From: a virus
Reading direction: 5' to 3' (one strand)
DNA: 22,908 nt
Virus record (IMG/VR): IMGVR_UViG_3300010150_000189
Coordinates: 1-22,908 of that record
In this document: one piece after another, positions 2,738-16,700 of the stretch
Position numbering within the stretch: position 1 is the first letter of the stretch
Layout of the letters: each line of letters starts with the position of its first letter
Notes under the pieces: model-generated
The model's database searches: none
What the model saw: only the letters and a program-made list of their open reading frames with translations
Told to the model about the DNA's origin: nothing
Translations under genes and position numbers: made by a program

Positions 2738-3589
2738 CTATTCTAATGGTATTTCTCTTAATTTTTTACCTGAATACGGATCATATTCAATTAATATGTT
2801 TTGTTCCGGATCTCTTTCATACAATCTTTTTGTGTCAGGTTTAAAATAAATAGCACCCGGAATCATTTCATCAAATATATATTCTCTTGTTTTTCCTTTT
2901 TTTCTATTAGGTAAAGTTCCTATAAAACCACCTTTTAAATTTTCGTTTTTTCTAATCGATGGTCCAATATATGCAGCAAATTCTGCGAATGCTTCAGGAT
3001 ATTCTTGTTGAATTGTAGTAATATAACCAGCAGCTTTTGGATCAGTATATTCTTTTAAAGTTTCATAATAAACTCTTTCTGGTGAATAATCTTTTTGTAA
3101 AGTAGAAGCTCCTGTTCCATACTGATCTTTTAATTCATATTCTCTCTCTAACTTTTTTATATCAGCTTTTGATTTAGTATCTATTTTACTTAAATCAAAA
3201 TCTTGGTCTTCTTTTCTTTGTTTAGCTTCTCTTGCAAGATCTTCTATTCTTCTCTCTTCTCCAATATCTATTTCTAAACCTGTTAGTGCAGCTTGTTTTG
3301 CTGCATCTCTTTGGCTTCCCATAGTTTGAAATGCTTGACCAACTGCAGGTTCAAAAGCTTTCGCTAAATTACCTAGTGTTGAACCGCCACCTGTTTCTGA
3401 AAAACCTCTTAGTCCACCTTGTATTAATAACTGTGCAATAGGATCAACAGCAGGTGCTGAATAATCTTGCATAATTTTATCAAATCTTTCTCTGTATGAA
3501 CCCTGACTAAAATTTGATCTCATACCAGAAGTGATGCCACCATCGACTTCACCTCCTCTTCTAAACATAGGTCTTCTTAAAGTTTTCAT
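2738..3589 (-). CDS. Ejection/internal virion-type protein, 283 aa
   Basis: The start ATG at 3589 overlaps the stop of the upstream gene as TAATG, indicating translational coupling. The N-terminus is basic (MKTLRRPMFRRGGEV), which I remember as a recurrent opening in uncultured marine phage proteins. Residues about 55-100 are Gly/Ala-rich and helical; about 105-155 are dense in Lys, Glu, Asp and Arg and look like a coiled coil; the C-terminal third is more globular with many Tyr and Pro. No enzymatic motif is visible. Its place between an Ala/Gln-rich protein and the giant left-end protein suggests an internal or ejected virion protein analogous in position to the P22 gp7/gp20/gp16 or T7 gp14-16 sets; that is inference from context. 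The function is otherwise unknown. Confidence 0.75.
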   Translation of the reverse strand: MKTLRRPMFRRGGEVDGGITSGMRSNFSQGSYRERFDKIMQDYSAPAVDPIAQLLIQGGLRGFSETGGGSTLGNLAKAFEPAVGQAFQTMGSQRDAAKQAALTGLEIDIGEERRIEDLAREAKQRKEDQDFDLSKIDTKSKADIKKLEREYELKDQYGTGASTLQKDYSPERVYYETLKEYTDPKAAGYITTIQQEYPEAFAEFAAYIGPSIRKNENLKGGFIGTLPNRKKGKTREYIFDEMIPGAIYFKPDTKRLYERDPEQNILIEYDPYSGKKLREIPLE

Positions 3590-4497
3590 TATGATTGTTT
3601 TCCTGGTGGGTTAAATAATCTATAGATACCAGCCAACGTTGCACCTGTGGTTAATCCAGTTTGTAATGCACTTGGTGAAGGAGAAACTTCTTGTACAGTT
3701 TTACCTGGGTATCCTGAAATTAAACTTGTAACTCCAGAACCATATTGTTGTGCAGCTGTTAAAGGTTGATTTAATTGTTGTTGAGCTAGCTGTTGACTTG
3801 CTTGTAACTCTGCTTGTTTCTGTGCTTGGTTTTGTGCACCTAAAGTTGATAAAGCTCCTACATCTTGACCTAAGAATGATTGCTGTGCACTACCTAATCC
3901 TAATTGAGCTGCGGCAAGTTGTTGTTGTTGGTTTGCTAAAGCTTGTTGTTGACCAAAAGCTCTACCCGATGCCTGTTGAGCTTGACCAAATGCTTGTCCT
4001 AATAATTGTGCTTGTAGTGCAGCTCTGTTTCTAGCTTGACCAGATAAAAATTCTGCTTCTTGAACACCTTCTCTTGCTCCACCAAATGCACCGGCTTGAA
4101 TCGCTTGATTTCTAAGTGATGGTAAACCTGCTTGTGTTTGTCTGTCAAATTCTGAAAGAGTTGTATCAATTATCTCCTGTTGATAAGGAGACATAAAATC
4201 TTTATATGCATCAGGTCCTACAAATTGACCTGCTGCTTGAGCAGCTTCTGCAGCTCGTGCTTGAGCAGCTTGTGAACTTTGTAAGAATGGTTGATAACCA
4301 CCAATACCTGTTTCCGCTAATTCCTGCGCTCTTTTTTGTAATGCGTCTTGTTCTGCTATAAACTGTGGACCAAATGTTTTAGTTAGATCTGCAGTTTTAT
4401 ATCCACCAATCGCTTTTTGTAAATCATCTAAATAAAGTTTTGCTTCCGCTTCTATAAACGGCGCTGGTAATACTCTACTCTCTTGGACTTCTGCCAT
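3589..4497 (-). CDS. Ala/Gln-rich ejection-type virion protein, 302 aa
   Basis: The middle of the protein (about residues 65-245) is dominated by Ala and Gln with few aromatics, and includes runs such as QQQQLAAAQLGLG. Residues about 100-145 hold the pattern YKDFMSPYQQEIIDTTL followed by QAIQAGAFGGAREG, a signature I recall from many marine phage virion proteins near ejection genes. The extreme C-terminus is short and hydrophobic (GATLAGIYRLF). The composition resembles podoviral ejected proteins such as P22 gp20/gp7, which form helical conduits during DNA delivery. Both ends use TAATG overlaps with the neighbouring genes, so the three proteins are probably made in coordinated amounts. The role is inferred from composition and neighbours; the gene itself is secure. 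Confidence 0.75.
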   Translation of the reverse strand: MAEVQESRVLPAPFIEAEAKLYLDDLQKAIGGYKTADLTKTFGPQFIAEQDALQKRAQELAETGIGGYQPFLQSSQAAQARAAEAAQAAGQFVGPDAYKDFMSPYQQEIIDTTLSEFDRQTQAGLPSLRNQAIQAGAFGGAREGVQEAEFLSGQARNRAALQAQLLGQAFGQAQQASGRAFGQQQALANQQQQLAAAQLGLGSAQQSFLGQDVGALSTLGAQNQAQKQAELQASQQLAQQQLNQPLTAAQQYGSGVTSLISGYPGKTVQEVSPSPSALQTGLTTGATLAGIYRLFNPPGKQS

Positions 4498-5777
4498 TAT
4501 ACTCTTCCTCCGTTTTCTAATGTTTTCATCATAGCGTACATACGTTCTGCACCCTTATCGACGTCACCGTCTCCAAATTCTCTTACAGCGTCTGCTGTCA
4601 TTACAAATTCGTTATTTGATAACATTGCTGGAATGTCATCTGCCTTTTCTTTTACACCAACTGGAGGAATAAATCCACCTGTTTCTCTAAGGTCTAATTC
4701 AGTTACTCCTGCAGGGTTTTTATTTAATCGAAGACCCTCGATGCCTGCTGCCTGAATCGCGTTATCTTCTGGACTACCCATAGCATAACCGATTCTACCT
4801 CCTTCTGCTACATTTGTTCTTACAAATTCAGCAACTTCTTCGTCTGACACACCTGGATTTAAATTTCTGTATCCTTTTTCTAACAACATAGCTAGTTTTC
4901 CTGAATCTTGTTGAAGTTCCGGCATATCTTCTTCTTTAGCTCCTGCTGCAGCTAATACAGATGGAATAACTGTTGAAGCTATTGTACCTATATTTGAACC
5001 TACAAAATTTTTAAGTGCGCCAAAAATACCTGGTTTTGAAACTGCAGCACCTTTTACTGCAGGTCCTGGTAAAAATTTTGTACCTCCACCAAATAAAAAT
5101 TGTTTTGCTCCAGTTTTAAAAGCTTGTGGTAAAAAACCTTTCATACCCAATGCTCCTCCAGGTAATCCAAAAGCAGTTACACCTAAAAGTGCTGCTTTAC
5201 CTAAATCAGATTTAACAAATTTTTTAATCCCTTTACCAATTGATTTAACAAGGCTACCTAAGCCATAATTTTGTCTACCCATCATTCCACCATCTGCTGC
5301 CATGCCTCTCATAGCTCCTACTATTGGTGATTGAAATGGTGTTTGATTTGTTAAACCGGAACCAGGTAATGCCATTGATGGTCCACCAACTAAACCAGTT
5401 CCATATCTTTGATCTCCTAATCTAAATCCATCTGTATCAAACAAAGGTTGACCAAAAAAGGATTCCCTACCTTGAGATACATTATTTGCAGTTGGTATTG
5501 TAGGACCTAACATACCACCAAGAGGAAGTTGCATAAGACCAACAGTTCTTCCATTAAAAGGAGTCGTTTGTGTTGGTTGTCCAATTGGTTGTTGCAAAGC
5601 GGGTTGTTGCATAGCACCACCTTCACCTAAAGTAGATTCAGCTGAATCTAATCTTTGATTAATACCTTGTAACATTTGTTCTGCAGAAGAAACACCACTA
5701 CCTAATTGATTTAGTCTAGGCATGATGCTGCCATCCTGATACATTTGTCTCGGTTGTTGCATACGTGATATTGTCAT
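4497..5777 (-). CDS. Internal/tail-associated protein with cationic helix and tape-measure-style C-terminal motif, 426 aa
   Basis: The first 160 residues are Gln/Gly/Pro-rich and probably disordered, with coiled-coil potential around 28-50. Residues about 171-210 (YGLGSLVKSIGKGIKKFVKS, then a hydrophobic LGKAALLGVTAFG stretch) form a cationic amphipathic helix next to a membrane-like segment. A second hydrophobic stretch lies at about 251-280. Residues 324-333 contain AEGGRIGYAM, a motif I recall from marine phage proteins. Residues 380-400 carry DDIPAMLSNNEFVMTADAV, matching the D-x-[IV]-P-A-[ML]-L-x-x-x-E-[FY]-V pattern often seen in tape-measure and related phage proteins. No Shine-Dalgarno sequence is evident before the ATG. 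It begins the left-end internal protein block after a 52-base gap. A membrane-active ejection role is inference. Confidence 0.7.
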   Translation of the reverse strand: MTISRMQQPRQMYQDGSIMPRLNQLGSGVSSAEQMLQGINQRLDSAESTLGEGGAMQQPALQQPIGQPTQTTPFNGRTVGLMQLPLGGMLGPTIPTANNVSQGRESFFGQPLFDTDGFRLGDQRYGTGLVGGPSMALPGSGLTNQTPFQSPIVGAMRGMAADGGMMGRQNYGLGSLVKSIGKGIKKFVKSDLGKAALLGVTAFGLPGGALGMKGFLPQAFKTGAKQFLFGGGTKFLPGPAVKGAAVSKPGIFGALKNFVGSNIGTIASTVIPSVLAAAGAKEEDMPELQQDSGKLAMLLEKGYRNLNPGVSDEEVAEFVRTNVAEGGRIGYAMGSPEDNAIQAAGIEGLRLNKNPAGVTELDLRETGGFIPPVGVKEKADDIPAMLSNNEFVMTADAVREFGDGDVDKGAERMYAMMKTLENGGRV

Positions 5778-5829: not shown

Positions 5830-6729
5830 TTATTTGATTTTTTCGCTATCGTCAACACGTTTTAAAGACTGTAATTCATCTAAGAAACGACCACAATAAG
5901 AGTGCTCTCCAACATGTGTTATATAGTCAGACACATAAGCAAATACTTTACCACCCATATCTGTCCATCTTTGACAAAAACCAAAGTCCTCGCCATAGTA
6001 TCTCTTAGTATCTGGGTCATGTAAAGTATCAAATAAATTATAAAAATTAGGTTTCTTTACTTCTTTACCATTAATAATAGTTGGTTGAAATATCTCTAAT
6101 TCAGGATATTTTTCTATCATTTTTGTAAGAACATGTCTTTTTATTAACATACATCCTGTAGGCACATGCGTTGTTTCTATTATATCATTCTCCATAACAA
6201 TTCTGTTTTTATCTGGTACCTTTATTGGATACATATATCCAGACTTGATAACATCGCTTTTCTTTCTTATCATTTCATACTTTTCTGTAAGTGCTAGCCA
6301 CATTTTATCTTCATCGATAGTCTTCATTGGATATGGACATGCGATAACATCTTTATCTTTTTCAATCATTTTCATGATAGTAGAAAACTGAAAATCTATA
6401 TCTGAATCTATAAACAATAAATATTCATAATCGTGTTCATGACTCAAGAAATCAGCTACACATAGATTTCTACCTTGTGTAACTAAAGATGATTTTAGTA
6501 ATGTAAAACTAACTAGTATATTATTTTTAATACACTCTTGTTGAAACTTTAACACTGCTTGTGTGTAATGCATAGATACATCAGAGTGACATGGTGTACA
6601 TACCATAATTTTATACTTAGGTTTACCACCTACATTTATTTCGGTAACAACACTACCTGTTTTTATAGTTTGATAAGTGTCTTTATTTGGTTCTTGTTTA
6701 TTAAACCATATTGGATCATTGTTTTGCAT
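5830..6729 (-). CDS. GT-A-fold (family 2-like) glycosyltransferase, 299 aa
   Basis: The protein opens a nucleotide-sugar-binding fold at residues 39-60 (KYKIMVCTPCHSDVSMHYTQ) and has the metal-binding DxD motif at 108-110 inside LLFIDSDIDF, followed by IACPYPMKT, typical of GT-A enzymes that transfer a sugar from a nucleotide donor using a divalent metal. A later GEDFGFCQRW segment (246-255) resembles the ED acceptor/catalytic motif of family 2 enzymes, and H272 near the C-terminus could be a metal ligand. It overlaps the upstream glycosyltransferase gene by 14 bases and is the last of four overlapping genes (His-rich protein, oxygenase, two glycosyltransferases). No signal peptide or membrane segment is visible, so it is probably cytosolic. 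Whether it modifies a virion protein, DNA base or host glycan is not readable from sequence. Local base composition is very AT-rich. Confidence 0.85.
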   Translation of the reverse strand: MQNNDPIWFNKQEPNKDTYQTIKTGSVVTEINVGGKPKYKIMVCTPCHSDVSMHYTQAVLKFQQECIKNNILVSFTLLKSSLVTQGRNLCVADFLSHEHDYEYLLFIDSDIDFQFSTIMKMIEKDKDVIACPYPMKTIDEDKMWLALTEKYEMIRKKSDVIKSGYMYPIKVPDKNRIVMENDIIETTHVPTGCMLIKRHVLTKMIEKYPELEIFQPTIINGKEVKKPNFYNLFDTLHDPDTKRYYGEDFGFCQRWTDMGGKVFAYVSDYITHVGEHSYCGRFLDELQSLKRVDDSEKIK

Positions 6730-7663
6730 TGATTGCTCCTTGTAAAAATCGTGTCCAAGATAAACCCTGTTTATCCCAATTATAATATTTATTTGTATAT
6801 TTAATTTGAAATTTTAAATGTTCGTTTACTGCTTCACTTTCTAAAGATTGTGCAGCTGCTTCGATAGCAGCAGCAAATTTAGTAGCCAATAATTTATAGT
6901 TATCTGTATATGGAATGTAGATAGGAAACTCTGCACCTGTTTCAAACAATGCACCCAGATCTGTTGTTATACAATACAAACCTGCTGACATACATTCTAA
7001 TAAAGAGATACAAGATGTTTCTTCAAATGTACTTGGATATGCATACATTCTATAATTTTTTAAATGTTCTCTAATATATTCATTTGATTTGTAACCGATG
7101 TAATTTACATTAGGTAATAAATCTGCTTGTTCATAAAGTGTTTTATAATATTTATCATTCTGTTCGTAAAAATCTTTTCCATATACTTCTGTAGAAGAAT
7201 ATACGTCTAATGTAATTAGTGGGTTCTTTATTAACTGCATCGCACCTAATAAAACATTCAATCCTCTCCAAGGTGTGTTTTGATGTATTATCTTAATTTC
7301 TTTTCCCTTCTGATATGTAGTTGCTACAGGTTCTATTTTCTCTACACCGTTTTTTATAACAACACATTTTTCAGTAGGTAATTTAAAGTATGTTCTAAAC
7401 TTTTCATATGACCAATGACTATTAAATACATACCAATCGTACTTACTGTGATTAGTTGAATCACTAAACCATGGTGCAAGATTCGGTTGATCGTAAGAAT
7501 TTTTTTGCCAAAGTATATTTACTTTAGTTGGATGTAATGGAATCTTTTCAGGCACTGATGTACATATTTGTACCTGATTTAATATTTTAGAATCTACATG
7601 TTTTTGTAAAAACTCAAATTGTAATTCTGTTCCACCTCTAGGATTATTATTTGTGAATGACAT
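6716..7663 (-). CDS. GT4-like glycosyltransferase, 315 aa
   Basis: The architecture is a GT-B enzyme. The N-terminus has a glycine-bearing NPRGGTELQ segment (residues 7-15), as in family 4 transferases. The second domain starts near residue 121 with KEIKIIHQNTPWRGLNVLL. The E-x7-E nucleotide-sugar motif is intact as E215...E223 in FEETSCISLLECMSAG, followed by CITTDLGALFE. Family 4 members move a sugar from a nucleotide donor with retention of configuration. The gene overlaps the upstream 2OG oxygenase by 17 bases and the downstream GT-A enzyme by 14, so the three are translationally coupled. A real start at 7663 is supported by the NNPRGG motif following immediately. Substrate unknown; LPS, capsule or virion glycosylation are all possible. 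Confidence 0.87.
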   Translation of the reverse strand: MSFTNNNPRGGTELQFEFLQKHVDSKILNQVQICTSVPEKIPLHPTKVNILWQKNSYDQPNLAPWFSDSTNHSKYDWYVFNSHWSYEKFRTYFKLPTEKCVVIKNGVEKIEPVATTYQKGKEIKIIHQNTPWRGLNVLLGAMQLIKNPLITLDVYSSTEVYGKDFYEQNDKYYKTLYEQADLLPNVNYIGYKSNEYIREHLKNYRMYAYPSTFEETSCISLLECMSAGLYCITTDLGALFETGAEFPIYIPYTDNYKLLATKFAAAIEAAAQSLESEAVNEHLKFQIKYTNKYYNWDKQGLSWTRFLQGAINAKQ

Positions 7664-8171
7664 AACTAACTGATGTTCTCCAATATGGTATTTTTTTTAT
7701 TGGTTGTGATGCATGTAGTTGGTTAGAGTCAAATAATATAAAATCACCTGGATTATATTTAATAACTTTTCCTTCTATATTTAATTCTCCTCCCCAATCT
7801 TCGGCCCATTGCGGTGTTAAAAATCCTACAATACTATAACTAGTATCATTACTGTCTTGATGAAATTCTGTAAAATGATTATCATTTTGAGCATTCAAAG
7901 CTATTCTTTTTATTCTTCTTTGAATTTGAAAATTATGTTGTTTTCGTAATTCTGTATTTATTCTATCAAATAAACAATTAAAATATCCCAACCAATAAGA
8001 ATCATTATATACTACTTCCTCATTATCCATAAATATAACTCCAGGAAAAGCACCACCTATTCCATTTATTGTGCTATTTCTATTTAATGACCACATATTA
8101 TTTGAAACCAAACCTGTATGCAGGGCAAACAACTCTTCTTTATTTAAGACGTTACTTATTATCTTTATCAT
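7647..8171 (-). CDS. 2OG-Fe(II) oxygenase, 174 aa
   Basis: This is a compact double-stranded beta-helix oxygenase. The iron-binding triad is visible as H104-x-D106 in EFHQDSND and H153 in NQLHAS, with R165 in YWRTSVSYV placed to bind 2-oxoglutarate. Between them lie the expected GGELNIEG and YNPGDFILFDS strands. Such enzymes hydroxylate a protein, lipid or sugar substrate while decarboxylating 2-oxoglutarate. It overlaps the His-rich gene upstream by 20 bases and the GT4-like gene downstream by 17, so it belongs to a coupled oxygenase-glycosyltransferase set. A hydroxylate-then-glycosylate sequence is an attractive inference, not shown. All catalytic residues are intact. Confidence 0.88.
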   Translation of the reverse strand: MIKIISNVLNKEELFALHTGLVSNNMWSLNRNSTINGIGGAFPGVIFMDNEEVVYNDSYWLGYFNCLFDRINTELRKQHNFQIQRRIKRIALNAQNDNHFTEFHQDSNDTSYSIVGFLTPQWAEDWGGELNIEGKVIKYNPGDFILFDSNQLHASQPIKKIPYWRTSVSYVIHK

Positions 8172-8415
8172 TTTTTTGATTCATTACTTTCTGAAATACT
8201 TCAAGACCTTTATTAGTAATTTGAACTGTAACATCTTGTACAATATCAGGTCCTTCTACTTTCTCTTTAAACACTTCTCCAGTTTTAGTATTTCTGTATG
8301 TTGTTGTACTAACACAATCTATTTTTGGTATATCATGTGTATGTGGAACATCACCACCTTCATGAGAGTGAGTAACGCCATTATCGTGAGTGTGTTCTAA
8401 TTTATCTTTATTCAT
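8152..8415 (-). CDS. Small His-rich protein with three HxH repeats, 87 aa
   Basis: The N-terminal 30 residues hold three evenly spaced pairs of histidines, each followed by an acid: HTHD (8-11), HSHE (16-19) and HTHD (25-28), giving a repeat of about 9 residues. This is a plausible metal-binding tail. The rest (YRNTKTGEVFKEKVEGPDIVQDVTV, about 40-64) looks like a small beta domain, and the C-terminus is Lys/Asp/Asn-rich and hydrophilic. There is no signal peptide or transmembrane segment. It overlaps the 2OG-Fe(II) oxygenase start by 20 bases, so the two are translated together; supplying metal to the oxygenase, or acting as a virion component, are both guesses. The family is not recognised. 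Confidence 0.72.
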   Translation of the reverse strand: MNKDKLEHTHDNGVTHSHEGGDVPHTHDIPKIDCVSTTTYRNTKTGEVFKEKVEGPDIVQDVTVQITNKGLEVFQKVMNQKNDKDNK

Positions 8416-11627: not shown

Positions 11628-12131
11628 ATGGTAAAGTTTGATCCATTTGCTCATGAAAATCTATTCTATGAATATATATTAAAAATTACCAATGAAGAAG
11701 TAAATCAAATTTTAATGATGGTAAAAAATTTAGATGCATATGGGTCCAAAGAAATCTCAGAGTGTAAAACTACTTTTACCACATTTAACATCTTGAATTT
11801 TCCTATATTAAAAAATTTAAAAAAACAAATCACTAATATTTTAGATAAACATAAATTGTTTCTAGATAACAATTGGGCTCAGTTATATAATACAGATCAT
11901 GGTCACTCTATTCACTTTCATGAATCTTCTATATATTCTGGAATTATTTATATAAAAGGAAACAATCCTAGCCCAACTGTTTTCTACAGTAAAAAGTTTA
12001 ATCCATATGATCATAAATTTAAAGCTAATACATTATTATTGTTTCCTTCAATGATTCCTCATGAAGTTAAAACATTGAAAAAAGACGAGGAAAGATTAAT
12101 AATATCTTTCAACGCTGGGAAAGTTTGTTAA
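11628..12131 (+). CDS. 2OG-Fe(II) oxygenase-like protein (PF13759-like), 167 aa
   Basis: First gene of the plus-strand cassette. The core signature is HSIHFHESSIYSGIIYIKG (residues 93-111), then FNPYDHKF, LLLFPSMIPHEV and EERLIISFN, which follows the pattern of the '2OG-FeII_Oxy_5' family of putative oxygenases (pairs of His, SG-x-x-Y, then FPS-x-x-x-H and a final R-x-x-x-S-F-N). Likely iron ligands are H96/H98 and H145, with R156 for 2-oxoglutarate. The N-terminal 90 residues are helical and lack a signal peptide. There is no good ribosome site at the correct distance, though a five-codon upstream reading frame may couple to it. The substrate is unknown. Sampled lines are markedly more AT-rich than flanking structural genes. 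Confidence 0.78.
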   Translation: MVKFDPFAHENLFYEYILKITNEEVNQILMMVKNLDAYGSKEISECKTTFTTFNILNFPILKNLKKQITNILDKHKLFLDNNWAQLYNTDHGHSIHFHESSIYSGIIYIKGNNPSPTVFYSKKFNPYDHKFKANTLLLFPSMIPHEVKTLKKDEERLIISFNAGKVC

Positions 12132-12138
12132 TAAAATT

Positions 12139-12684
12139 ATGGATCATTTAGAAGCAGTTGTTAAATTAGATAATATAATTGATAAAGATTTTATAAAAAA
12201 AATGATACCATTTATAGATCATAGAGCAAAAGAATATTTAACTACCACTGGAGGCTTACATAAAAATGTAAGAAATGTAAAAGGCTTTCATGTAAATAAT
12301 GAAACTCCTACAAACATTTTTTATTGGAATTATATAAAGAAAGAAATAGAAAGATTATATAGTTTTTATAAAATTAAATTTCCAGCGATGGAAAGTTCTG
12401 AAATTAATCAAATAGATTTATTAAAATATGGGGTTGGTGGAAAATATGATTCACATACCGATCAAGGCACATCTGCACCAAGACATTTAAGTATTATTAT
12501 GAATTTAAATAATAAGTATGAAGGTGGAGATTTAGTTTTTGCAGATCAAAAACAAAAAGAAATAAAAAGATTAAAACTAAACACTGGATCAATAGTATTT
12601 TTTCCAAGTAATTTCATGTATCCACATGGTATTCAACCCATTACAAAAGGAACAAGGTATAGTATAGTTGCATGGCTACAATAA
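12139..12684 (+). CDS. Prolyl-4-hydroxylase-type 2OG-Fe(II) oxygenase, 181 aa
   Basis: All catalytic residues are visible: H106-x-D108 in YDSHTDQG, H163 in MYPHGIQP and R173 in GTRYSIVAWLQ. The strands EGGDLVFAD and LNTGSIVFFPS sit between them as in prolyl 4-hydroxylase-like enzymes. These hydroxylate proline or related residues of proteins, or small molecules, using iron, oxygen and 2-oxoglutarate. The length, about 180 residues, is the minimal catalytic domain. It starts 7 bases after the stop of the first oxygenase and overlaps the start of the third by 13 bases, so the cassette is one operon. No clear ribosome site precedes its ATG. Tail or collar proteins are nearby candidate substrates, by context alone. 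Confidence 0.9.
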   Translation: MDHLEAVVKLDNIIDKDFIKKMIPFIDHRAKEYLTTTGGLHKNVRNVKGFHVNNETPTNIFYWNYIKKEIERLYSFYKIKFPAMESSEINQIDLLKYGVGGKYDSHTDQGTSAPRHLSIIMNLNNKYEGGDLVFADQKQKEIKRLKLNTGSIVFFPSNFMYPHGIQPITKGTRYSIVAWLQ

Positions 12685-13250
12685 AAAATAAATTAATTAA
12701 AAATTTTTTTAGTAAAGAAGAATTAAATATTCTTCAGAAATATTGTATTAATAAACTACATTCCACTACAGATTATTTTATTGATCCTCAATCTTTTTCT
12801 CCGGCGTGGTACAATGATTCTTTAATGGATACTTTGTTAGAAACTAAATTATCTTTTGTAGAGAAAGAATCTAAATTAAGTTTGTTTCCAACATATACAT
12901 ATTGGAGATATTATGTATACGGAGGATCGCTACGTAAACATAGAGATAGACCTTCTTGTGAAGTATCTATTACTGCATGTATTAAAAAAAATGATAACTG
13001 GCCTATTGTAATTGAAGGTAAAAAATTTGAATTGGATGAAGGTGATGGTATTATATATAATGGAGTTTTTCAAAAACATGAAAGACCAGGCATATATAAA
13101 GGTGAAGGTATGGCACAAGTTTTTTTTCACTATGTAGATAAAGCTGGACATTTCACAAGACATCAATATGATAAGTATTTTAAAAATACAGGAAATAAAG
13201 CACACGAAGAGGATTTAAAATGGATGCGATTGAAAAAACCGTTAATATAA
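12672..13250 (+). CDS. 2OG-Fe(II) oxygenase with HRD iron motif, 192 aa
   Basis: The iron motif is H90-x-D92 in LRKHRDRPSCEVS, followed by DEGDGIIYNG and H136 in FQKHERPG; the terminal strand reads AQVFFHYVD (148-156). This set (HRDRP-C-E-S, then H-x-RPG, then QVFFHYVD) is one I recall from cyanophage and other marine phage oxygenases. The usual 2-oxoglutarate Arg is replaced or displaced, with Q149 at the expected strand; this may be normal for the subfamily. It overlaps the second oxygenase by 13 bases and the fourth by 31, arguing for strict co-expression. No membrane or export signal is visible. The substrate is unknown. Confidence 0.85.
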   Translation: MATIKNKLIKNFFSKEELNILQKYCINKLHSTTDYFIDPQSFSPAWYNDSLMDTLLETKLSFVEKESKLSLFPTYTYWRYYVYGGSLRKHRDRPSCEVSITACIKKNDNWPIVIEGKKFELDEGDGIIYNGVFQKHERPGIYKGEGMAQVFFHYVDKAGHFTRHQYDKYFKNTGNKAHEEDLKWMRLKKPLI

Positions 13251-13819
13251 CTAACTTCATAGGTGTCTATGATAATTATATTAGACCAGAAGAATGCGAT
13301 AAAGCTATTAAATTATTTGAAGATCAAAATAAATTTAATAATACATTAAATAGAATAGCTTTTGAAAAATCATCTATAACACATAAACAAGATCAACAAT
13401 ATTTTGCAGCACCTAATAATATAGATGTTTGGTGGGAATCATTAAAACCAATGATGTTAAATTTTGATATAGCTTGGAATCATTATGTAAAAAATACAGG
13501 TGCAGACCAAGCTTATGAAGAGTCTTTTTATTTTACAGATTTAAAAATACAAAAAACTTTACCTACAGAAGGTTATCATGTTTGGCATATAGAACATGGA
13601 AAAGGACATGAAAATGAACCTAGAGCTTTTGTTTATTCAATATATTTAAATGATGTTGAAGAAGGTGGAGAAACAGAATTCTTACATTTTTCAAAAAGAG
13701 TACAACCTAAAAAAGGTAGAATAGTTATTTGGCCTGCAGCATTTCCTTATTTACACAGAGGTAACCCACCACTTTCTGGTGAAAAATATATTTTAACATC
13801 TTGGATGATGTTAAAATAA
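13220..13819 (+). CDS. 2OG-Fe(II) oxygenase with HxE triad, 199 aa
   Basis: The catalytic pattern is H123-x-E125 in VWHIEHGKG, the typical IYLNDVEEGGETEFL strand-turn (141-155), GRIVIWPAAF, then H169 in YLHRGNPP and K179 in GEKYILTSW. Prolyl 4-hydroxylase-like enzymes commonly use Lys for 2-oxoglutarate, so the site looks functional, although Glu rather than Asp in the iron motif is a minor variant. A clear AGAGGA ribosome site lies 6 bases before the ATG at 13220, inside the previous gene. Its TAA (13817-13819) directly abuts the TAA of the opposing collar gene, with no intergenic space for a terminator, so the two converging transcripts probably overlap. Confidence 0.9.
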   Translation: MDAIEKTVNITNFIGVYDNYIRPEECDKAIKLFEDQNKFNNTLNRIAFEKSSITHKQDQQYFAAPNNIDVWWESLKPMMLNFDIAWNHYVKNTGADQAYEESFYFTDLKIQKTLPTEGYHVWHIEHGKGHENEPRAFVYSIYLNDVEEGGETEFLHFSKRVQPKKGRIVIWPAAFPYLHRGNPPLSGEKYILTSWMMLK

Positions 13820-14401
13820 TTAAGTTTTTATAAGATACATTACAGTTAGATAAGGCTGCACAACCGAAGTAGCATCCCCAGAAAAATTGGCACTCATATT
13901 GTGGGAGTGACCACCACCTGAACCTGTATTACCTGAACCAGATGGACTGGCTGTAGGTCCTTGATATGGGTGACTCATTGGTCTATTAGATCTATAAGCA
14001 GGATTAAAATTAGCGTATCCTTTGGGGTGACTATGAGAAGCAAGTTGTGGAGTTGATAAAGTTGCATTGGCTGTACTCCCCGCAACGTTTCCAGTTGTTG
14101 TTACAGTATTAGCACCACCTGTTGATGCTAAAGCTTTATTATTAGATTTTCCAATTGCTACATTGTCAGACAAATTAGGAACAGCAAAAGTAGAGGAACC
14201 ATCACCTGCACCATAAGTTGTCCCTACAATTGCAAATAATGCTGAATAAGTACTTCTTGAAACTGTTTGGCCATTACATTCTAAATATCCAGACGGCACT
14301 GAAGAATCAGACCAAGGAATAATAGTTGCTGTAGGGATACCTTCAATGTCAGTAAGGTTTGCCCCATCGAAATCATATTTTGTTGCTTCGTAATTTGACA
14401 T
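13820..14401 (-). CDS. Tail collar-domain protein, copy A, 193 aa
   Basis: Residues about 27-80 form a phage tail collar domain (PF07484-type): IIPWSDSSVPSGYLECNG, SRSTYSALFAIVGTTYGAGDG and FAVPNLSDN. After it come a Gly/Thr-rich linker, an HSH motif (123-125), a divergent tip (126-158, rich in Pro, Asn, Tyr, Ser) and a second HSH (165-167), then NFSGDATSVVQPYLTVMY, which is nearly identical in all three copies. In T4-type fibres, HxH motifs bind metal and the segment between them forms the receptor-contacting tip, so the same role is inferred here. It is last of three tandem paralogs and ends against the plus-strand oxygenase cassette. The ribosome site is TTAGGATAAATT before ATG. Confidence 0.88.
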   Translation of the reverse strand: MSNYEATKYDFDGANLTDIEGIPTATIIPWSDSSVPSGYLECNGQTVSRSTYSALFAIVGTTYGAGDGSSTFAVPNLSDNVAIGKSNNKALASTGGANTVTTTGNVAGSTANATLSTPQLASHSHPKGYANFNPAYRSNRPMSHPYQGPTASPSGSGNTGSGGGHSHNMSANFSGDATSVVQPYLTVMYLIKT

Positions 14402-14409
14402 AATTTATC

Positions 14410-14997
14410 CTAAGTTTTAATAATATATATTATAGTTAAATAAGGTTGTAAAACTGAAACAGCATCACCACTAAAGTTTGCACTCATATTATGACTATGT
14501 GCACCTCCTGAACCAGCGTTACCTAAACTAGTATTTGTGTTACCGAATGCTGTATACTCTGGGTTATCTTGTCCAGGGTTGTTGTTTTTATTTGGAGGTC
14601 TAACATAAGTTGCAGCTCTTGGGTGACTATGAGAAGCAAGTTGTGGAGTTGATAAACTTGCATTAGCTGTTGAACCACCTACGTTTCCAGTGGCTGCTAC
14701 AGTATTAGCACCACCTGTTGAACCTACTGCTTTGTTATTTGATTTTCCAACCGGTACGTTATCTTGTAAGTCAGGTACATTAAAAGTACTTGAACCATCC
14801 CCAGCGCCATAAGTTGTACCTACAATTGCAAACAATGCAGAGTAAGTTGATCTTGAAACTGCTGCACCATTACATTCTAAAAAACCTGATGGGACTGAAG
14901 AATCAGACCAAGGCACAATAGTTGCTGTAGGAATTCCTTCAATACCTGTAAGGTTTGCTGCGTCGAAATCATATTTTGTTGCTTCGTAGTTTGACAT
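14410..14997 (-). CDS. Tail collar-domain protein, copy B, 195 aa
   Basis: Same layout as its neighbours: collar domain at about residues 27-80, Gly/Thr linker, HSH at 123-125, variable tip at 126-160, second HSH at 167-169 and the conserved NFSGDAVSVLQPYLTIIY end. The tip is distinct from copies A and C: Asn/Pro-rich with an aromatic start (ATYVRPPNKNNNPG) and a Thr/Asn stretch. The N-terminal 120 residues differ from copy A at few positions, so this is a recent duplication with a replaced or rapidly changing tip. Eight bases separate it from copy A, and the intergenic sequence with its ribosome site (TTAGGATAAATT) is repeated almost exactly. Probably a receptor-binding or short-fibre subunit. 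Confidence 0.88.
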   Translation of the reverse strand: MSNYEATKYDFDAANLTGIEGIPTATIVPWSDSSVPSGFLECNGAAVSRSTYSALFAIVGTTYGAGDGSSTFNVPDLQDNVPVGKSNNKAVGSTGGANTVAATGNVGGSTANASLSTPQLASHSHPRAATYVRPPNKNNNPGQDNPEYTAFGNTNTSLGNAGSGGAHSHNMSANFSGDAVSVLQPYLTIIYIIKT

Positions 14998-15005
14998 AAT
15001 TTATC

Positions 15006-15581
15006 CTAAGTTTTTATTACGTATATAATTGTTAAATAAGGTTGAATAACTGAAGTTGCATCCCCAGAAAAATTGGCGCTCATATTGTGAGAATGTCCAC
15101 CACCTGAACCTGTATTTGGTGTAGCTGATCCATTTTTAGCTGCTGCTTGATATTGGGGTATACTTATTTTTCTAAATCTACCTGGACCTGCAGCTACTCC
15201 TTGATTGTGATTATGAGAAGCAAGTTGTGGAGTTGATAAAGTTGCATTGGCTGTTGAACCACCTATATTTCCAGTTTTAGCTACAGTATTAGCACCACCT
15301 GTTGACGCTAAAGCTTTGTTGTTAGATTTACCTAATGCTATATTATCTTGAAGATCTGGAACAAGAAAAGTAGATGAACCATCACCTGCTCCGTAAGTTG
15401 TACCTATGATTGCAAATAAAGCAGCATACGTTGATCTTGAAACTGCTTGACCATTACATTCTAAATATCCTGATGGTACTGAAGAAGAAGACCATGGTAT
15501 AATAGTTGCTGTAGGGATACCTTCAATACCAGTAAGGCTTGCACCTGAGTAATCATATTTAGTCGCTTCGTAATTTGCCAT
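15006..15581 (-). CDS. Tail collar-domain protein, copy C, 191 aa
   Basis: First of the three collar paralogs in transcription order. The collar domain (residues about 27-80) and linker match copies A and B, but the first His motif is HNH (123-125) rather than HSH, and the tip (126-156) is Ala/Gly/Gln-rich with basic residues (GRFRKISIPQYQAAAKNG). The second HSH is at 163-165 and the NFSGDATSVIQPYLTIIY end is conserved. It has a stronger ribosome site (GTAGGAGAAAAC before ATG) than the other two and a different upstream sequence, consistent with being the original copy. It is probably a metal-stabilised fibre tip that recognises a host surface structure; this follows from the family, not from direct evidence. 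Confidence 0.88.
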   Translation of the reverse strand: MANYEATKYDYSGASLTGIEGIPTATIIPWSSSSVPSGYLECNGQAVSRSTYAALFAIIGTTYGAGDGSSTFLVPDLQDNIALGKSNNKALASTGGANTVAKTGNIGGSTANATLSTPQLASHNHNQGVAAGPGRFRKISIPQYQAAAKNGSATPNTGSGGGHSHNMSANFSGDATSVIQPYLTIIYVIKT

Positions 15582-15589
15582 GTTTTCTC

Positions 15590-15997
15590 CTACGAAGAAT
15601 ATGATGTAGGTCTTGCGCCTAGTCTAGCAATTTTCTCCGATTCTGTTTCGTCTCTAAAAGTTTCTGATCCTTCTGGATCTTCAATTGATAAAGTATCTTC
15701 ATCCCAATCTGACTGTAATTTAGATAAGTGAGCTGAGTCCCATCTATTACTAAATTGACTAATGTCACCTAAATCTGCATCTGCATAACTACAATGAGGA
15801 GTTTCATCTCTGTGCTCTACTTCGTCAGAAGTATTAGAAGTGCCGTATTGAATAGCCCAAATATTAGAAAATTTTGATTCATTCCAAAAAGCATCATCAT
15901 CAATTCTGTATCCAACACCTTCATTAGCACCTTCTGCATAATTTTTAATGATTGCTTTATCTTCAAATACTATTGTCCAATTTCCTTTTGCTGCCAT
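15590..15997 (-). CDS. Small acidic protein next to tail fibre genes, 135 aa
   Basis: I place the start at 15997 (MAAKGNWTIVFEDK), not at the in-frame ATG at 16036, because the later ATG follows the upstream stop by one base, has a GGAGAA ribosome site, and gives the expected MAAKG opening. The protein is rich in Asp, Glu, Ser and Trp, with W residues at regular intervals (NWTIVFED, DDDAFWNESKFSNIWAIQYG, FSNRWDSAHL, QSDWDED) and an ETPHCSY segment near the centre. The C-terminal 35 residues look disordered. No enzymatic motif is visible. Being wedged between a tail fibre protein and the collar proteins, it could be a fibre-assembly chaperone or a fibre-attachment protein; the family is not recognised with confidence. 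Confidence 0.72.
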   Translation of the reverse strand: MAAKGNWTIVFEDKAIIKNYAEGANEGVGYRIDDDAFWNESKFSNIWAIQYGTSNTSDEVEHRDETPHCSYADADLGDISQFSNRWDSAHLSKLQSDWDEDTLSIEDPEGSETFRDETESEKIARLGARPTSYSS

Positions 15998-15998
15998 A

Positions 15999-16700
15999 TT
16001 ATTTCTCCGTGTAAGTCCATCCTGTTGTTGCATCACCTGAATAAACTAATTCAAGACCTGCACCTTGTGTATTAACAACAAGGTCAGATGCTGCGTTTAC
16101 TATATTAGAGCTGTTTCTGCCAATAGTCAACGCGTTAGTATTAAAATCGTATCCTTGATCTACAAATGATACCGTGTCACCAGTGCTTGGTGATGCAGGT
16201 AGCGTAATTGTTACAGCTCCTCCATTTGTATTCACTAAGCATTTAGCACCTGCTTGAACTGTTTCAGATGCTGTAAATACTCTCCAATTTCTTTGTTCAG
16301 ATAATTTTACAATGTTTGTACCATCAGAATATAATACATAGTTATTTCCTTCACATAAAAGAACACCTGTACCTGATGATGTTTTAAAAGTTAAAGTGTT
16401 TCCTGCATGGTCACATGCATCTTGTACATTATAAACTTTTTCAATTCCATCCGGAATTGTTACATTTAAATTTCCCGCTAGAGTTCCTGTTAATTTAATA
16501 ACATCATTTTTACCATTTGATATTGCACCATTAGTAAATGTTAGTGCTCTACTAGCATTAGTTACGTTGAAAGTTGTAAAACCACCGATTGCTTGTTCTA
16601 AAATTAATAAGTTTGTATTTGTAATTTGTCCCCAAGTTCCCGAGTTTTCACCAGTAGCTTGAACCGTTAATTTTAAATTAGCTGATGTTGAATTTGCCAT
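15999..16700 (-). CDS. Tail fibre protein, 233 aa
   Basis: The N-terminus MANSTSANLKLTVQATGENSGTWG (split by the NLLILEQAIGG helix around residues 30-40) is a motif I recall from tail fibre and baseplate-adjacent proteins of marine cyanophages and pelagiphages. The remainder is beta-rich and Thr/Asn/Gly-rich, with repeated strand-turn units (LTFTNGAISNGKND, GNNYVLYSDGTNIVKL, GGAVTITLPASPSTGDTV), typical of trimeric fibre shafts. It has an AAGGAA ribosome site and is preceded by a terminator hairpin overlapped by a promoter, so it may head its own transcript with the 135-residue protein and the three collar genes. No catalytic domain seen. Confidence 0.82.
   Translation of the reverse strand: MANSTSANLKLTVQATGENSGTWGQITNTNLLILEQAIGGFTTFNVTNASRALTFTNGAISNGKNDVIKLTGTLAGNLNVTIPDGIEKVYNVQDACDHAGNTLTFKTSSGTGVLLCEGNNYVLYSDGTNIVKLSEQRNWRVFTASETVQAGAKCLVNTNGGAVTITLPASPSTGDTVSFVDQGYDFNTNALTIGRNSSNIVNAASDLVVNTQGAGLELVYSGDATTGWTYTEK

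Follow-up and report, generated by a model that had tools for sequence, protein, structure and literature searches.

The Collar Locus and Its Neighborhood

The window comprises an IMG/VR virus record of 22,908 bases. Its closest relative among phage records is Pelagibacter phage HTVC027P, which infects SAR11 bacteria, and the record represents part of a related virus. On the minus strand, the genes run in the order T, M, p1, p2, and p3, followed by plus-strand 2OG-Fe(II) oxygenase genes (Table 1). The starts of p2 and p3 share an identical arrangement of stop codon, ribosome-binding site, and start codon, with an intergenic spacing of 8 nt, and exact repeats of up to 43 nt adjoin the variable tips of the encoded proteins. 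At least two other metagenome contigs (L005 and L015) encode the p1, p2, and p3 proteins in the same order, so the array in the window is not an assembly error of its contig. HTVC027P has the same locus with the same neighbors, and its gp70 is 71% identical to p1 and 77% identical to p2. Unlike the window, however, HTVC027P has gp70 as its single collar gene, with gp71 (M) behind it. Gene M also lies downstream of the collar gene in the other single-copy phages.

Four genes of the 2OG-Fe(II) oxygenase type are found around the tail module, at 7647–8171 (−), 11628–12131 (+), 12139–12684 (+), and 13220–13819 (+), three of them on the strand opposite the structural genes. At the equivalent place, HTVC027P has one gene annotated as a 2OG-Fe(II) oxygenase, with a hypothetical gene on either side. 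An 87-residue ORF at 8152–8415 (−) that has no Pfam match carries a His-rich N-terminus (HTH, HSH, HTH) and is possibly a small metal-binding protein. At 5830–7663 (−), a glycosyltransferase (group 1, PF00534) adjoins a protein with a sub-threshold Anp1 match.

Table 1. Features of the collar locus in the window
Feature	Position	Strand	Basis or remark
p1, first collar protein, 191 aa	15006..15581	-	ORF; PF07484 E 1.1e-22; arm marks Y11, G13, G18
p2, second collar protein, 195 aa	14410..14997	-	ORF; PF07484 E 5.6e-22; arm marks F11, A13, G18
p3, third collar protein, 193 aa	13820..14401	-	ORF; PF07484 E 5.9e-22; arm marks F11, G13, D18
Gene M, ~135 aa, no assigned function	15590..15997	-	between T and p1; GTG start at 16036 listed, ATG at 15997 likelier
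Gene T, tail-type protein, 233 aa	15999..16700	-	census anchor
p1/p2 junction: stop, AGGA-type ribosome-binding site, start	14990..15014	-	within 25-nt exact repeat
p2/p3 junction: second copy of the 25-nt repeat of the p1/p2 junction	14394..14418	-	exact repeat
p1 variable tip, 31 residues (126-156)	15114..15206	-	segment alignment
p2 variable tip, 35 residues (126-160)	14518..14622	-	segment alignment
p3 variable tip, 33 residues (126-158)	13928..14026	-	segment alignment
p1 first HxH, HNH, residues 123-125	15207..15215	-	translation; His invariant, 93-row alignment
p1 second HxH, HSH	15087..15095	-	translation; 93-row alignment
p2 first HxH, HSH	14623..14631	-	translation; 93-row alignment
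p2 second HxH, HSH	14491..14499	-	translation; 93-row alignment
p3 first HxH, HSH	14027..14035	-	translation; 93-row alignment
p3 second HxH, HSH	13901..13909	-	translation; 93-row alignment
p1 N-terminal arm, residues 8-20, subunit-specific	15522..15560	-	arm comparison
p2 N-terminal arm, residues 8-20, subunit-specific	14938..14976	-	arm comparison
p3 N-terminal arm, residues 8-20, subunit-specific	14342..14380	-	arm comparison

Anatomy of the Three Collar Proteins

All three proteins match the PF07484 Collar family at 78–80 bits, against a curated cut-off of 24. Their pairwise identity is 75–77% overall (77% for p1 and 75% for p2, each to p3). A sequence-only reading of this DNA had described three adjacent paralogs that share nearly the whole N-terminal part and carry unrelated tips of variable length between two HxH motifs; it left the strand unstated, and its tip coordinates correspond to the minus-strand residue ranges in Table 1. 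The description of the tips is borne out: they are 17–30% identical between pairs, and their alignment scores were equalled by 65 to 355 of 2000 shuffles for the window trio, which amounts to no detectable relation. The flanks are indeed shared, at 80–89% identity in the part after the tip, although "nearly the whole" is slightly strong wording for residues 1–125, which are 83–86% identical. The DNA-level alignment that the same reading called for gives 82–83%, 51–54%, and 75–83% identity for the N part, tip, and C part, respectively.

The histidines of the HxH motifs are invariant in 93 aligned proteins, and two such motifs, 28–70 residues apart, occur in all 447 full-length relatives examined. 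Tip length in relatives ranges from 30 to 48 residues, a variation that we take to be unlike that of a diversity-generating retroelement target. The arrangement does not match an invertible, phase-variable tail-fiber system, as the copies lie head-to-tail on one strand and each is a complete ORF. The two invariant HxH motifs would also be candidate iron sites in the context of the Ferrojan Horse idea; iron in tail proteins is discussed in a pelagiphage infection study (PMC12753301). An AlphaFold2 monomer computed from the 93-row alignment is a poor model (mean pLDDT 55.7, with residues ~31–80 at 69–84), so the tip is placed in the particle by homology only. An intertwined trimer may be the cause of the low quality.

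Comparison with Known Receptor-Binding Proteins

The T4-type layout proposed from the sequence holds, in that a PF07484 collar is joined to an HxH-bounded tip, as in gp12 and gp37. The tip of T4 gp37 (2XGF) and gp12 (1OCY) resemble the trio in having a collar-like domain and an HxH-bounded distal region. In T4, however, each is one long gene product, whereas the window encodes a stand-alone protein of ~190 residues in three versions. T4 gp12 and gp37 are homotrimers, and phage receptor tips of the collar/HxH type are known as homotrimers, which produces a three-fold symmetric binding site. The sequence match to T4 gp12 (1ocy) is weak (E 0.0044). The best solved sequence relative is the tail fiber of cyanophage A-1(L) (8KEC), with an E value of 1.3e-8, or 1.3e-9 with a profile. 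A Foldseek search of the PDB with the poor monomer model gave 8KEC (E 1.2e-3), 2xgf (E 0.021), and 1ocy (E 0.11), all of them weak. Among solved structures, the A-1(L) fiber is thus nearest to the trio by sequence and, weakly, by fold. Unlike the trio, it is described in the paper on this phage as a trimeric fiber of one protein, with the fibers given as gp33 and gp34 trimers. Structure 9QGO has the same layout as the window proteins, running from the collar through HxH, tip, and GHNH to the C-terminus.

Three other systems have adjacent genes of this kind. In virophage DSLV2, according to the published description (PMC12724248), three consecutive PF07484 genes (QIG59353-55) encode proteins of similar size with a conserved collar and a variable receptor end, as in the window. 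These three proteins co-purify with one tagged subunit as a heterotrimer, in a complex of approximately the expected mass (58.3 kDa for three), and the authors report that proteins of this type group by gene position (PMC12724248). By the same description, DSLV2 differs from the window in being a virophage with a jelly-roll capsid and a trio beside a minor capsid gene, whereas the window belongs to a tailed SAR11-type phage with tail-gene neighbors. A minor capsid neighbor of the DSLV2 type is absent at the window trio, which adjoins tail-type and 2OG-Fe(II) oxygenase genes. The window's phage group further differs from DSLV2 in including single-copy relatives, in which the condition preceding triplication can be seen.

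Methanosarcinales virus vir515 (BK063672.1; L495, positions 3075–5178), which is tailed, has exactly three tandem tail-protein genes (00035-00037) with a layout of CNG...HxH-variable-HGH-PPYYAL; the proteins are 46–51% identical to the first, and the starts and stops of the genes overlap. Unlike the window proteins, these have no Pfam Collar match and have a longer N-terminus, and the virus is unrelated. The array of vir515, a virus of a methanogen, suggests that the three-gene arrangement extends beyond the window's phage group. Burkholderia Bcep22-like phages (Lessievirus) also have adjoining collar-related tail-fiber paralogs, but their proteins are longer and the genes number three or four, so three is not a universal limit for collar paralogs. 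No report of a heterotrimeric collar tip in tailed phages was found among the open-access papers listed, of which the DSLV2 paper alone was judged relevant. The accessible text of a study of uncultivated HTVC023P-type pelagiphages (PMC9599517) has no mention of "collar," "tail fiber," or "duplicat".

Copy Number among Relatives

Relatives were gathered from IMG/VR by collar queries and by the T gene, together with bacterial and archaeal genome contigs, with the best 80 matches taken per scan. A locus was counted as complete when it had T on its upstream side and, on the other side, M or a stretch of 700 nt or more; 56 of 319 distinct loci were left out for an incomplete flank, and repeat fetches of known contigs were dropped. 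Among the matches listed, the 263 complete loci divide into 195 with a single collar gene, 11 pairs, and 57 triples, and no larger array was seen. Because collar-anchored scans are biased toward arrays that resemble the query, the T-anchored count, which favors no copy number, is fairer. In that count, 95 of 110 contigs were complete among the matches listed, with one, two, and three copies in 81, 1, and 13 cases and none above three. A later set likewise gave no array above three among the matches listed (45 of 50 contigs complete; 14, 1, and 30).

With C denoting a collar gene, the single-copy and triple orders among the 263 listed loci are T-C-M (195), T-M-C-C-C (38), T-C-M-C-C (13), and T-C-C-C-M (6); M therefore separates the first and second collar genes in 13 of 57 triples. 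The two-copy orders in the same listed set are T-C-C-M (6), T-C-M-C (3), and T-M-C-C (2). An apparent four-copy array in L051 was rejected; we read it as a triple whose third gene carries a frameshift. A single-copy T-C-M relative (L420) lies on a 47.8 kb contig of the Pelagibacteraceae record AG-919-D18 and gives a possible host link.

One locus, L301 (602–1812), has p1 and p3 identical to those of L007 and lacks p2. Compared with L104, it shows a clean loss of 596 nt, located at a perfect repeat of 55 nt that runs across the gene junction. If this loss is real and viable, it is evidence against an obligate trio; if it is an assembly collapse, it is not.

Subunit-Specific N-Terminal Arms

Across 152 distinct single-copy proteins, eight arm positions (9, 11, 13, 16, 17, 18, 19, and 20) are each fixed to at least 98%, and 149 of the proteins show no deviation at any of them. 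In trios, by contrast, the arms of the three copies are mutually different in 31 of 31 representatives; all three subunits deviate from the single-copy type in 22 trios and two deviate in the other 9. Three different arms were also computed for 10 of 10 trios in later contigs, and inspection by eye gave the same result for the remaining four (L508, L509, L538, and L542). Residue 8 (K or R) was rejected as a subunit mark, since single-copy proteins vary there too (122 K, 73 R).

Exactly one Y11 is present in 28 of 31 trios, at array position 1, 2, or 3 and in all three gene orders. Y11 and A13 never occur in one subunit among the 17 trios that have both. Of the 11 trios that carry a single Y11, a single A13, and a single D18, 10 have each mark on a separate subunit, the window included. 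On a tree built without residues 1–20, Y11 needs 17 changes, so it has been gained repeatedly or moved. One Y11 per trio failed as a general rule on the later contigs, which belong mostly to a divergent T-C-C-C-M group: a single Y11 occurred in 4 of their 14 trios and was missing from the other 10. It was kept only for the T-M-C-C-C and T-C-M-C-C groups. What carried over to the later contigs was the difference among the three arms and a single D18 (12 of 14). T-C-C-M pairs have single-type arms, with 0 of 6 copies deviating. Tips that were interchangeable on a shared platform would preserve a single arm, as in these pairs; the arms of trios differ.

Evolution of the Tips

Pooled dN/dS values for seven pairs at three positions are 0.79 for the tip and 0.17 and 0.12 for the flanks. 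Purifying selection on the collar backbones is thus strong, and it is the tip that is hypervariable and evolves rapidly. Tip variation among relatives, which the sequence-only reading had predicted, is present, but it takes different forms in single-copy phages and in trios. For single-copy representatives whose N-part DNA is at least 90% identical, the tips are unrelated in 238 of 252 pairs, whereas for triple representatives under the same cut-off they are unrelated in 0 of 7. With non-overlapping pairs, the contrast is 33 of 44 versus 0 of 5 (Fisher p 0.0023), the triple side consisting of these five pairs. Single-copy loci L115 and L119, for example, are 93% identical in N-part DNA and have unrelated tips; on sequence grounds, a receptor tip of approximately 100 nt has been naturally replaced between these closely related phages. 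The window's cluster (L005) and L007, by comparison, keep all three tips despite T genes that are only 79% identical.

The tips of a trio tend to be retained or lost to recognition together, a pattern that depends on the identity threshold: at 0.5, 435 pairs of trio representatives give 8 with all three tips related, 422 with none, and 5 mixed (mostly borderline), and at 0.45, with fewer arrays, 435 pairs give 25 with all three, 409 with none, and 1 of the pattern 010. L027 and L100, whose tip identities are 0.68, 0.67, and 0.38, may represent one real single-tip change. Swappable tips, as proposed earlier, are therefore found in single-copy relatives, but no exchange was seen among trio genes. 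The further proposal that flanking identity lets the trio tips recombine is not supported for this array: across 30 clusters, no tip exchange between positions was seen, the top cross-position identity of 0.56 being at the chance-match level of triple-versus-single comparisons, and the genes cluster by position. For 46 of 60 tips, 52 of 60 N parts, and 37 of 60 C parts, the best match occupies the same array position. None of 2000 label permutations gave as large a same-position excess in identity for any of the three segments, a result inflated by related arrays.

Origins of the Trios

On the T tree, triples are interspersed with single-copy phages, and the M genes of T-M-C-C-C phages fall in three places on the M tree. 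On the collar tree, several copies from the same array are sisters (copies 1 and 2 of L177, 99/91; copies 2 and 3 of L223, 99/92; copies 1 and 2 of L163, 98/80), and the L226 and L193 copies branch outside all others. One earlier collar tree was built without 11 unsplit rows, L193 and L226 among them; both are present in the later tree. Four full-length proteins were left out of the tip comparison because the segment pattern did not split them. Trio genes cluster by position (11 label changes versus 35.7 when shuffled), but the positions are not clean clades, and a separate single origin for each position, as three clades, was rejected by the trees.

Young two-copy arrays (L091, L094, and L137) have tips that are 72–85% identical, and the tips of the L223 trio are still recognizably alike at 45–48%; in most older trios, the tips are unrelated. 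Since young duplicates carry near-copies of one tip, duplication does not start with the acquisition of a new one, and these sequences suggest that tips change in situ once a gene has been duplicated and are not imported. A single origin is improbable in view of gene order, the M tree, and the tip series combined. These data suggest that triples arose several times, although the number of origins is a matter of judgment and gene conversion could also make sister copies. In the T-C-M-C loci (L091, L094, and L095), the collar genes flank M and have different N-terminal arms, one of them with Y11. The tips of L091 and L094 are 72–83% identical despite their different arms, and by sequence arm divergence precedes tip divergence at the three loci.

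A Probable Heterotrimeric Receptor-Binding Tip

We conclude that p1, p2, and p3 occupy assigned positions and do not stand in for one another, and we propose that they are probably subunits A, B, and C of one heterotrimeric receptor-binding tip. For a protein that forms trimers, a heterotrimer is the simplest structure to require three different subunits and no other number. The distinct arms and the positional orthology would be explained equally well by three homotrimers (AAA, BBB, and CCC), each docked via its own arm and giving three receptor specificities per particle; an arm code is just as expected from three homotrimers at three sites. The homotrimeric T4 gp12 and gp37 speak for this alternative, as do the A-1(L) gp33 and gp34 trimers of the published description. 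However, it offers no natural reason for a limit of three that is reached repeatedly, it leaves without a reason that all three tips are kept or diverge together, and the DSLV2 virophage precedent, which involves the same type of protein, is reported to be a heterotrimer (PMC12724248). We regard the homotrimers as unlikely. The existence of two-copy arrays (11 of 263 loci among the matches listed), including T-C-C-M pairs with single-type arms, counts against the heterotrimer, which the limit of three and the linked tips lead us to favor over docked homotrimers as a preferred, not a proven, structure. Also counting against it are the failure of the Y11 rule on later contigs, the lack of clean clades for the positions, the small number (five) of non-overlapping triple pairs behind the tip linkage, and the three or four fiber genes of Bcep22-like phages.

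The earlier reading offered alternative or co-assembled tips. Co-assembly fits the data, whereas a repertoire fits poorly with linked tips that have their own arms. In such a repertoire, tips that can replace one another would share one docking platform, serve as alternatives or in random mixtures, and be shuffled through flanking identity; the exact repeats beside the window tips, the replacement of tips on near-identical backbones in single-copy relatives, and the gene lost at a repeat in L301 speak for it. Against it, tips are not common to different positions, the arms differ in 31 of 31 trios and are nearly fixed in single-copy proteins, arrays above three are absent among the matches listed, and the tips of young duplicates are near-copies (72–85% in L091, L094, and L137). 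These observations make a repertoire quite improbable. We give still less weight to the notion that the array has no special role, having arisen by recombination and been kept by drift or dosage, with three as a sampling accident. Tandem duplicates are common in phages, and copy loss through the junction repeat was seen once (L301), but drift does not account for backbone dN/dS values of 0.12–0.17, for the arm code, or for 57 threes against 11 twos and no fours among the matches listed for 263 loci.

Most relatives, with their single collar gene, would make a homotrimer, and the favored heterotrimer would take its place. A single gene would have been duplicated within a lineage, after which tips and arms would diverge. 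Translation would proceed in tandem from the adjacent genes, which have 8-nt spacing and like ribosome-binding sites, and the subunit-specific arms would bring together one A, one B, and one C or seat them asymmetrically on the tail. The collar domains would trimerize, the two HxH sets would coordinate metal along the three-fold axis in the manner of T4 gp37 and gp12, and three different loops would form one composite receptor-contacting head. The anatomy, the limit of three, the repeated origin, the distinct arms, and the linked tips are observed at these loci, and from them we infer the trimer, its stoichiometry, the metal, and the receptor contact in this model.

Somewhat less firmly, we lean toward a broader statement: tailed phages belonging to one of the most abundant types in the ocean may repeatedly have turned a homotrimeric tip into an obligate three-gene heterotrimer with private arms and a composite head whose loops evolve jointly, and virophages and perhaps the archaeal vir515 may have arrived at the same solution. 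If true, the heterotrimer would permit a composite binding site that lacks three-fold symmetry and would account for the side-by-side position of three genes whose tips are unrelated. The single, double, young-triple, and old-triple arrays in one phage group would form a natural series from homomer to heteromer after duplication. Metagenomic "tail collar" paralogs would then be parts of one receptor-binding unit and not host-range spares.
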